Source: Chloroflexota bacterium
GTDB lineage: Bacteria > Chloroflexota > Anaerolineae > Anaerolineales > VGOW01
DNA length: 32,226 bases
Assembly: GCA_016875735.1 (NCBI GenBank)
Contig: VGOW01000042.1
Coordinates: forward strand, 1-32,226
Direction of reading: 5' to 3'
In this document: positions 18,093 to 21,636 of the stretch, piece by piece
How positions within the stretch are numbered: the first letter of the stretch is position 1
Layout: each line of letters begins with the position of its first letter
Notes under the pieces: generated by a model
Seen by the model: only the letters and a program-made list of their open reading frames with translations
Databases searched by the model: none
Told to the model about the DNA's origin: nothing
Translations under genes and position numbers: made by a program

Positions 18093-18928
18093 CGCGCTTT
18101 CTTCTTCGAGTATTGATCGTAGAGGGCGAGCATGTTCCGCTGATGGAGGCGGGCAACCAAGCCGGAAAGGGGGATGCGGCTCTTGCCGCACGACTCGATG
18201 TCAATCTCCAACGCATCTTCGCGGCTTTTGCCCTTCTCGATCAGCCGTTCCATTTTGCGGCGAATGTTGTCGAGGTAGCGCAGATTGGAGCGCACCGCTT
18301 CGTCAATCTCCCCGCGCAGAATCACTTCACCGTGCCCCTGCACGATGTTTTCCAATCCCATCGGCGGGATGGCTTGCAGTGAGCGATAGATGTCATCCAT
18401 ACTGCCATCGACAAAATACGGCAGGGGCATCATCGTGTCTCCGGCGAAGAGGATGCGATCCTCTTTCACCAGCACCGTGATCGAATCGGGGCTGTGGCCG
18501 GGGGAGTGAGTGAGGGCGAGAGTCTTTTTGCCGAGGTGCAGTTCGATCTGCCCGCGAGAGAACACCAGATCGGGCAAGATCACTTCAATCTTGTCCAAGG
18601 CCGGGTTGTCGGCTTTGGCTTCCTTCAAGCCCCTGCGCCCAACGGTGTTGAGTAAATCGTGGCACTTGCGATGAGCCACGACTTCAGCGCCCTTGAACAG
18701 GCATGTGCCGTAGGTATGGTCGGCGTGATAATGGGTGTTGATGACGTACTTGACGGGGACGTTGAGTTTATTTTGCGCGAGGTCGAGAATCTCAAGCGTC
18801 TCGGATGGAAAGGCCATCGTGTCGATCACCGCCGCGCCGTCGGGCGATACGATCAAGCCTGCCGTCACCTGTGCGTAAAGTTCGCTGGTAAAAATATGGA
18901 CATCGTCTGAGACTCGCTCTCGCAACAT
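18089..18928 (-). CDS. Metallo-beta-lactamase-fold hydrolase
   Basis: A 279-residue MBL-fold protein. The zinc motif is INTHYHADHTYG (about residues 63-74; HxHxDH). Further ligands are His in LTHSPGHSPDS, Asp in LFAGDTMMP, and a final His in VQGHGEVIL. The C-terminal extension (LRYLDNIRRKMERLIEKGKS) is helical, as in the glyoxalase II-like and SoxH-type subgroups. The substrate is unknown. Its start at 18928 is preceded by a GAGG about 10 nt away. It heads a two-gene unit with the AlaX-like gene. Upstream lies the ncRNA candidate, whose terminator ends about 70 bp before this ATG. Confidence 0.88.
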   Translation of the reverse strand: MLRERVSDDVHIFTSELYAQVTAGLIVSPDGAAVIDTMAFPSETLEILDLAQNKLNVPVKYVINTHYHADHTYGTCLFKGAEVVAHRKCHDLLNTVGRRGLKEAKADNPALDKIEVILPDLVFSRGQIELHLGKKTLALTHSPGHSPDSITVLVKEDRILFAGDTMMPLPYFVDGSMDDIYRSLQAIPPMGLENIVQGHGEVILRGEIDEAVRSNLRYLDNIRRKMERLIEKGKSREDALEIDIESCGKSRIPLSGLVARLHQRNMLALYDQYSKKKAR

Positions 18929-19002
18929 TCTTGTGCATCCTCAAAGTATGATGTGGCGAGAATAGCACAGGCAGAGGGTAGGGTCAAGGTTGACCGGACA
19001 AA

Positions 19003-19224
19003 ACAAAAGCGACAGACGCTGGCCTGTCGCAGAAATTTTGCGCCCCACCGTGCCGTGTGTCCGCGGGTTTTGTGCCTGCTTGCGAAAGCAGGGTAGGCAT
19101 CGGCGCCACCGGTTTGCCTTGGCTTCCCGAAAGTCGCCTATCGCATTCCCAGAGGACAGCACAGCGCCCGTCACAAAAGTGTTGGCTCAAAACCGGGGTG
19201 CGGCATCACGCGCACAGCAGGGTT
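19003..19224 (-). ncRNA. Candidate structured non-coding RNA (~220 nt), class unknown
   Basis: A 425-bp gap without a convincing gene lies between the metallo-beta-lactamase and pnp genes. On the minus strand it contains a promoter (TATAAG, 19231-19236; weak -35 TTGCGC, 19254-19259; 17-nt spacing) and, about 200 nt on, an intrinsic terminator (19009-19030 plus TTTTGTTTTG). Between them the RNA can fold with several stems. GGTTTTG pairs with the distant CAAAACC and closes a junction. A hairpin CCTGCTT-TCGC-AAGCAGG, a small CAC-TTTT-GTG hairpin, and an arm in which CCTCTGG pairs with CCGGTGG and GGCG with CGCC lie inside. I recognise no SRP RNA, RNase P, tmRNA or riboswitch signature. A divergent 6S RNA or a terminator-linked leader of the downstream gene is possible. 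Confidence 0.6.
19009..19030 (-). terminator. Terminator of the ncRNA candidate
   Basis: GCGACAG (19009-19015) and CTGTCGC (19024-19030) form a perfect 7-bp stem with an 8-nt loop. On the minus strand it is followed by TTTTGTTTTG. It ends 70 to 80 bp before the metallo-beta-lactamase start codon. Confidence 0.8.
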
Positions 19225-19230
19225 AGTTTT

Positions 19231-19259
19231 CTTATACCATGACCCACCACTCTGCGCAA
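19231..19259 (-). promoter_or_regulatory. Promoter of the ncRNA candidate
   Basis: On the minus strand the -10 box is TATAAG (5 of 6) and the -35 box is TTGCGC (first three bases conserved), 17 bp apart. This predicts a start near 19224. Confidence 0.45.
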
Positions 19260-19353: not shown

Positions 19354-21636
19354 TTATCGCCGCATCCGATCGCGGTCGCCGCGGCGCGGGCCGCCACGAT
19401 CACTTCCGCCGCGCCCGCGATCCCCGCCCCGGCCCCCGCCGCCCGGGCGGCCGCCACCCGATGGTTTGCGATCGCGCTCCATCGCTTCTTCCGCTGTCCA
19501 GCCTTCGAGCACTGCCTGCCGCGAGAGTCGTATCTTGCCGCCCTCGTCCACGTTGATCACCATCACCGTCAACTCATCGCCCACACGGCACACATCTTCA
19601 ACTTTCGGCACGCGGTAATCGGCCAACTGGCTGATGTGCACCATCCCATCCACGCCCGGCAGAATTTCCACGAACGCGCCGAAGTCGGTGGTGCGCACCA
19701 CTCTGCCGGTGTAAATTTTTCCGATCTCCGGCGATTCGGTGAGCCCGGCGATGATCTCGCGCGCTTTGCGCGCCGCCTCGCCGTCGGTGGAAGCGATGAG
19801 TACCGTGCCATCGTCTTCAATGTCGATCTTGACTCCCGTCTCGTCTTGAATCTTGCGGATCATCTTGCCGCCGGGCCCGATCACCGCGCCGATCTTGTCG
19901 GGGTTGATCTTCATCGTCGTCATGCGCGGCGCGTAGGGCGAAAGGTCGGGGCGCGGTTCGGGGATGGCGGCGCGGATCACGTCGAGAATCTTCAGCCGTG
20001 CTTCGCGCGCCTGCGCCAGTGCTTCGGACATGATCTGCGCGGTGAGGCCTTTGATCTTGATGTCCATCTGCAAGGCAGTGATGCCTTTCTCGGTTCCGGC
20101 CACTTTGAAATCCATATCGCCGAGATGATCTTCGATTCCCTGAATATCGGTGAGGACAGCGTAGCCGTTATCGTCTTTCACCAAACCCATAGCGATTCCG
20201 GCCACGGGCGACGAAATAGGCGCCCCGGCATCCATCAGCGCCAGCGTGGAGCCGCACACCGAACCCATCGAGGTTGAGCCATTGGATGACAATACTTCGG
20301 ACACGACGCGCAGGGTGTACGGGAATTGGTTTTCGTTCGGCAGCACCGGCGCGAGCGCGCGTTCGGCCAGCGCCCCGTGCCCGATCTCGCGGCGCGATTG
20401 TCCGCGCAGTGGCCGCACTTCGCCAGTGGAGAAGGGCGGGAAGTTGTAGTGGTGCATGTATCGCTTCTCGTCTTCGGGCGAGAGCGTGTCGAGTTCCTGC
20501 GCGTCGCGCGGCGTGCCGAGCGTTGCCAGCGAGAGCACTTGCGTTTCGCCGCGCGTGAAGAGGCCGCTGCCGTGCGCGCGGGGGCTGAGGCCCACTTCGG
20601 CGGCGAGGGGGCGAATGTCGCGGAGGCCGCGCCCATCGGGGCGCGCGCCCTCGGCGATGATGCGTTTGCGCACGACTTCCTTCTCCAGATCGTGCAGCAC
20701 TTCTTTGATGTCGCCCGGATCGACCGCCGCCAACAGCGCTCCCTCTTCATTGACTACCGGGGTGGGGTTGGCGGTGAAGGCGGCCACCATTTCGCTGACG
20801 AGGGCGTCGAGCTCCTCGCTGCGCGACTCTTTGGTGGTGGCAGTGCGGAAGATGTCGTCGATTCGCGAGCCCACTTTGGCGCGCACATCGGCCACCAGTT
20901 TTTCGTCCAGCACGAATCTTTTATAGCTGCGTTTGGGTTTGCCCACTTCGGCGGCCATCTGCGCTTGCAGATCGATGATGGGCTGCAGAGCCGCGTGCCC
21001 AAACTCCAGCGCCTTCACCATCACATCTTCGCCGACCTCGTACGCGCCGCACTCCACCATGAGGATCGCGTCGCGCGTTCCGGCGATACGCAGATCGAGA
21101 TCAGAGTGTTCCATCGTCTCGAAGGTGGGGTTGACCACGAATTCGCCGTCAACCATCCCCACGCGCACCGCGCCGATGGGGCCGTCGTAGGGCGGCACAC
21201 CGAAGGGGACGTCGGAGATGGTGAGAGCCGCGCTCGCGCCGATGATAGCGAGGATGTCGGGCTGGTGAACTTGATCGGCGGAGAGCGAGGTGATGATGAT
21301 CTGCACGTCGTTGCGCAAATCATCGGGGAAGAGCGGGCGCAGGGGGCGGTCGGTGAGGCGGGCGGTGAGCACCGCGCCTTCGCCCGCTTTGCCTTCGCGC
21401 CGGAAGAACGAGCCGGGGATGCGGCCGGCGGCGTACAGTTTTTCTTCGTAGTCTACGCTGAGGGGGAAGAAGTCGATTCCGGTGCGCGGCTCTCTCGACA
21501 TGGTGGCGGTGGCCAACAGCATTGTGTCGCCCGCGCGCACGGTGACGGCGCCCCCCGCCAGTCCGGCCAGTTTGCCGGTCTCGATGGTGATCAGATCAGC
21601 GCCCACCATCACATTGAATTGTTTGGATACAGACAT
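19354..21636 (-). CDS. pnp: Polyribonucleotide nucleotidyltransferase (PNPase)
   Basis: A 760-residue phosphorolytic 3'-5' exoribonuclease of the RNA degradosome. Its order is first RNase PH domain (GSFFRREGKAGEGAVLTARL, DRPLRPLFP), helical linker, second RNase PH domain (RPDGRGLRDIRPLAAEVGLS; FSTGEVRPLRGQSRREIGHG; catalytic Asp in EDHLGDMDFKVAGTEKGITA), KH domain (KIGAVIGPGGKMIRKIQDET) and S1 domain (GRVVRTTDFGAFVEILPGVD). A C-terminal tail of about 40 residues is rich in Gly, Arg and Asp (RPGGGGRGGDRGRGG). The ATG at 21636 has GGAGG at 8-nt spacing; the frame continues upstream but into the leader. It follows rpsO, the classic order, separated by a double hairpin. The RGG-like tail is unlike E. 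coli PNPase and may bind RNA. Confidence 0.98.
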   Translation of the reverse strand: MSVSKQFNVMVGADLITIETGKLAGLAGGAVTVRAGDTMLLATATMSREPRTGIDFFPLSVDYEEKLYAAGRIPGSFFRREGKAGEGAVLTARLTDRPLRPLFPDDLRNDVQIIITSLSADQVHQPDILAIIGASAALTISDVPFGVPPYDGPIGAVRVGMVDGEFVVNPTFETMEHSDLDLRIAGTRDAILMVECGAYEVGEDVMVKALEFGHAALQPIIDLQAQMAAEVGKPKRSYKRFVLDEKLVADVRAKVGSRIDDIFRTATTKESRSEELDALVSEMVAAFTANPTPVVNEEGALLAAVDPGDIKEVLHDLEKEVVRKRIIAEGARPDGRGLRDIRPLAAEVGLSPRAHGSGLFTRGETQVLSLATLGTPRDAQELDTLSPEDEKRYMHHYNFPPFSTGEVRPLRGQSRREIGHGALAERALAPVLPNENQFPYTLRVVSEVLSSNGSTSMGSVCGSTLALMDAGAPISSPVAGIAMGLVKDDNGYAVLTDIQGIEDHLGDMDFKVAGTEKGITALQMDIKIKGLTAQIMSEALAQAREARLKILDVIRAAIPEPRPDLSPYAPRMTTMKINPDKIGAVIGPGGKMIRKIQDETGVKIDIEDDGTVLIASTDGEAARKAREIIAGLTESPEIGKIYTGRVVRTTDFGAFVEILPGVDGMVHISQLADYRVPKVEDVCRVGDELTVMVINVDEGGKIRLSRQAVLEGWTAEEAMERDRKPSGGGRPGGGGRGGDRGRGGSDRGGPRRGDRDRMRR

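Follow-up and report, generated by a model that had tools for sequence, protein, structure and literature searches.

A full-length 6S RNA gene below the Rfam gathering score in a member of the Anaerolineales

6S RNA, a well-known small RNA that most bacteria possess, binds RNA polymerase and holds it in check, and its genes usually number one or two per genome. The molecule has a characteristic layout of bubble and stems (PMC8876501, PMC9130861), and holoenzyme binding, mimicry of an open promoter, use of the bubble and P2 helix as a template and release by refolding are traits of the family (PMC9130861, PMC8876501). In 6S-1 RNA of Bacillus subtilis, the 3' strand of the bubble already forms a hairpin in the free RNA (PMC8876501), and in the B. 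subtilis group one 6S gene adjoins the gene for aspartate-tRNA ligase (PMC7726162). 6S RNA genes have already been reported from Chloroflexi (Wehner et al. 2014, as cited in PMC7726162). Ms1 of Actinobacteria is likewise a rod with a central bubble, but its partner is the core polymerase, devoid of the primary sigma factor (PMC9130861).

The window, i.e., the whole 32,226-nt stretch of contig VGOW01000042.1 that was analysed, contains a 425-bp gap between the start of a metallo-beta-lactamase (MBL) fold gene and the end of pnp. On the minus strand of this gap lies what is almost certainly the genome's single-copy 6S RNA gene (ssrS), which has an extended -10 promoter and a terminator of its own. 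The family, structure, promoter and terminator of the RNA are established by sequence and covariation. The features of the locus are listed below, where R1 denotes a covariance model built from an alignment of 22 relatives from the order, with the window's own genus left out.

end at 19354, minus strand: pnp, with RNase PH, KH and S1 domains
19231 to 19239, minus strand: extended -10 TGGTATAAG (19239-19231), from sequence and conservation in the loci read
19038 to 19226, minus strand: 6S RNA (SsrS) core, full-length RF00013 match (Rfam 37.3 bits; R1 93.7 bits)
19199 to 19222, minus strand: closing (terminal) stem, 5' strand, pairing with about 19043-19062 (fold, covariation helix 1)
19184 to 19194, minus strand: P2 (downstream) helix, 5' strand GGUUUUGAGCC, part of the putative pRNA template (fold, covariation helix 2, homologous 6S RNAs of E. 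coli and B. subtilis)
19170 to 19183, minus strand: central bubble, 5' strand AACACUUUUGUGAC (R1 alignment)
19093 to 19169, minus strand: internal/apical arm, the near-invariant GCGAUAGGC...GCCAAGGC lying close to its tip (conserved columns, covariation helices 3-6)
19075 to 19092, minus strand: 3'-strand hairpin of the central bubble, CCUGCUU-UCGC-AAGCAGG (sequence and fold)
19066 to 19072, minus strand: P2 helix, 3' strand CAAAACC (sequence, fold, covariation)
19043 to 19062, minus strand: closing stem, 3' strand (fold, covariation)
19001 to 19030, minus strand: intrinsic terminator with a 9-bp stem and 4-nt loop followed by TTTTGTTTTG (sequence)
18959 to 18987, minus strand: separate promoter-like site beyond the 6S terminator, TTGACC-17-TATTCT, with TG before the -10 (sequence)
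start at 18928, minus strand: MBL-fold gene (PF00753)

Assignment to the 6S RNA family

At gathering thresholds, cmscan returned nothing in the whole window. A permissive scan of 1 kb recovered the RNA over model positions 1-187 of 187 of RF00013 with an E-value of 8.4e-6, its 37.3 bits lying under the gathering score of 46.4 bits, which is a curation threshold and not a biological feature. Two microRNA matches in the permissive Rfam scan (E 0.81 and 1.9) were attributed to chance. No further RF00013 match was found in the 4.15 Mb genome at E<=10, so that the window copy is the sole one, and R1 gave no second match in this genome at the same cutoff. The plasmid records searched also gave no match.

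Relatives resolve the low score. Each of the four other genomes of the same genus contains one RF00013 match (55.9, 52.4, 46.2 and 44.7 bits), two of them above the gathering score, and in a draw of 201 genomes from the order 158 match RF00013 and 146 reach the gathering score, with a best score of 85.8 bits. The R1 model recognizes the window copy with an E-value of 4.4e-21 and the copies of its genus relatives at 111-118.5 bits. Since R1 was built without the genus, this result indicates that the window copy shares a family with RNAs that pass the Rfam threshold unaided. The sub-threshold score is therefore judged to be a limit of sensitivity, given that orthologues pass and the lineage model gives E 4e-21. 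The preliminary description of this DNA had left the RNA unclassified, as matching no RNA class that it could recognize, and had offered a diverged 6S RNA, a new sRNA or a leader of the downstream genes as options. The first of these was correct, as the full-length RF00013 match and the R1 score attest, and membership in a known Rfam family leaves both the unclassified status and the new sRNA unsupported. The comparison with Rfam that it proposed did return a known family, yet at a score below the gathering threshold, and the relatives were needed to secure the call.

Diverged 6S or 6S-like RNAs occur elsewhere in the order. Most of the listed genomes of genus g8 gave no RF00013 match under strict filters. 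In two of them (G011, L124:1501-1664; G059, L125:1501-1662), R1 finds short, diverged 6S-like RNAs near aspS, scoring 48 and 25.6 bits and having a shortened closing stem; several other g8 genomes gave no match even with R1. The 6S RNAs of genus g9 (L121, L122 and L123, from G012, G037 and G049) measure 193-194 nt, their apical loop being longer and their P2/bubble sequence (GGUUAAUCCCUACA) different; RF00013 under strict filters overlooked them, and R1 recovered them at 57-59 bits.

Structure, promoter and terminator

The fold of 19226-19003 has a minimum free energy of -98.3 kcal/mol (z = -2.81), and none of 200 shuffled sequences was as stable. To assess covariation, 27 sequences, one of them the window copy, were aligned and given a 52-pair consensus. 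Standard pairs occupy 93.7% of its cells, and 23 of the 52 pairs have changed on both sides. The covariation score is 0.300, with shuffles at 0.143 and slid structures no higher than 0.086, and should be read with the caveat that the 52-pair structure was derived from the same alignment on which it was scored; RNAalifold applied to the alignment without the genus gave essentially the same structure. In the closing stem (helix 1), 96.3% of cells are paired and six pairs are altered on both sides. P2 is formed by pairing of GGUUUUG with CAAAACC (19194-19188 with 19072-19066). The molecule is thus a rod with a closing stem, a central bubble and an internal stem, all supported by covariation.

The likeness to 6S RNA (RF00013) extends to length, the full-length match, the closing stem, the central bubble and its 3'-strand hairpin, P2, the apical arm, an own promoter and single copy number, within an order-wide family that mostly exceeds the gathering score; the window copy differs in falling below it. 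Compared with the consensus of the order, the apical loop of the window copy is longer and its bubble hairpin has 7 bp instead of 5 bp, the relatives carrying CCUGC-GAAA-GCAGG there. This hairpin occupies the same place as the one in B. subtilis 6S-1. There is also a slight chance that the near-invariant apical GCGAUAGGC...GCCAAGGC marks a lineage-specific 6S variant of Anaerolineae-like Chloroflexota with some role that canonical 6S RNA lacks.

The RNA is encoded by a stand-alone gene of about 180-200 nt with its own promoter and one match in the genome. Its extended -10 consists of TATAAG (19236-19231, minus strand) with TGG just ahead. A simple scan for promoters overlooked the box on account of the poor -35 (TTGCGC, with a 17-nt spacer). 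The box is supported instead by conservation: each of the 35 loci read, one being the window and 34 coming from relatives, has TGGTAT immediately ahead of the RNA. A terminator-like hairpin lies within 90 nt downstream of the RNA in 20 of the 35 loci. The preliminary description had reported a structured non-coding RNA with a minus-strand -10 box, an intrinsic terminator (here a 9-bp stem followed by TTTTGTTTTG, 19030-19001), a GGTTTTG/CAAAACC junction helix and a TCGC-loop hairpin (19092-19075), and all of these hold at those positions. The conservation and covariation in relatives that it had called for are likewise present. What it termed a multibranched fold is the central bubble with its 3'-strand hairpin, and its interval of 19003-19224 is right except at the 5' end, where a few bases differ, the RNA running on the minus strand from about 19226 to 19001.

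Gene neighbourhood and predicted action

In the window, MBL and AlaX genes lie downstream of the 6S RNA and pnp lies upstream. Two genomes of the same genus (G003, G004) have the same downstream pair but aspS upstream, and two others (G001, G002) keep aspS and have downstream genes that differ from those of the window. An aspS relative occurs near the 6S RNA in 23 of the 45 loci read (L002-L005, L007, L009, L010, L014-L018, L022-L025, L031, L116, L119, L121, L123-L125), or roughly half, and the adjacency of aspS and 6S RNA is possibly an old gene order. This recurrence of aspS, and that of the MBL gene, speaks for the 6S assignment; the pnp that the window has upstream in place of aspS speaks against it, as does the sub-threshold score. 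The window RNA resembles the B. subtilis type in the bubble hairpin, and the related loci with aspS recall the aspartate-tRNA ligase neighbour in the B. subtilis group, but the window's genome has one 6S copy where B. subtilis has two. A survey of pnp in named and distant genomes, 54 loci in all, turned up no 6S RNA beside the gene, which shows that pnp is not a conserved neighbour; the closest pnp relatives in named genomes belong to Anaerolineales and other Chloroflexi, which points to a Chloroflexota host.

This variation bears on the suggestion that the RNA acts on the downstream MBL/AlaX genes as a terminator-controlled leader, in the manner of a riboswitch-like attenuator. The RNA does lie upstream of the MBL gene on the same strand with a terminator in between, and seven other related loci also have an MBL gene nearby. 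The position upstream of a regulated gene is not a conserved one, however, as an MBL gene is near the RNA in only eight of the 45 loci, window included, and no MBL relative accompanies it in the same-genus genomes G001 and G002 or in most of the order, where the RNA is conserved nonetheless. The promoter-like site past the terminator (18959-18987) likely serves the MBL gene, the fold offers no alternative pairing between the body of the RNA and the terminator stem, and the lineage model identifies the RNA as 6S. Either neighbour can be lost without loss of the RNA, which argues against an MBL/AlaX leader. Because the downstream genes change among relatives, this reading, also raised in the preliminary description, was rejected as highly improbable.

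Least probable of all, to a degree that makes it barely credible, is an RNA that resembles 6S in structure and differs in function, like Ms1: binding to core or holoenzyme cannot be told from sequence alone and Ms1 was itself initially regarded as a 6S candidate (PMC9130861), but Ms1 is about 300 nt long and bears an additional hairpin region at either end (PMC9130861), whereas the window RNA is about 189 nt and aligns end-to-end with RF00013, and relatives in the order score as high as 85.8 bits on the 6S model.

For the 6S RNA gene, polymerase binding, trimming, the pRNA and a growth-phase role would all carry over from the 6S family. A transcript of about 220 nt would run from its own promoter to its own terminator and probably be trimmed to about 185-190 nt. 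As a rod with a central bubble, it would mimic an open promoter and bind the RNA polymerase holoenzyme containing the housekeeping (primary) sigma factor, thereby blocking promoters when growth stops. On the return of nucleotides, transcription by the polymerase along the 5' strand of the bubble and of P2 would yield a short pRNA, whose synthesis would refold or unfold the RNA and release the enzyme. The template region GAGCCAACAC is conserved, and the pRNA itself is a prediction. By homology with U44 of E. coli 6S RNA, the pRNA is predicted to start opposite C19181 (near 5'-GUUGGCUC) and to read about 5'-GUUGGCUCAAAACC.

This locus demonstrates that a full-length 6S RNA gene can fall below the Rfam gathering score and so escape a routine scan, and that relatives together with a lineage model secure the 6S call for such a sub-threshold copy. 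The gene in the window is an ordinary, expected housekeeping RNA gene that was missed by the default threshold.
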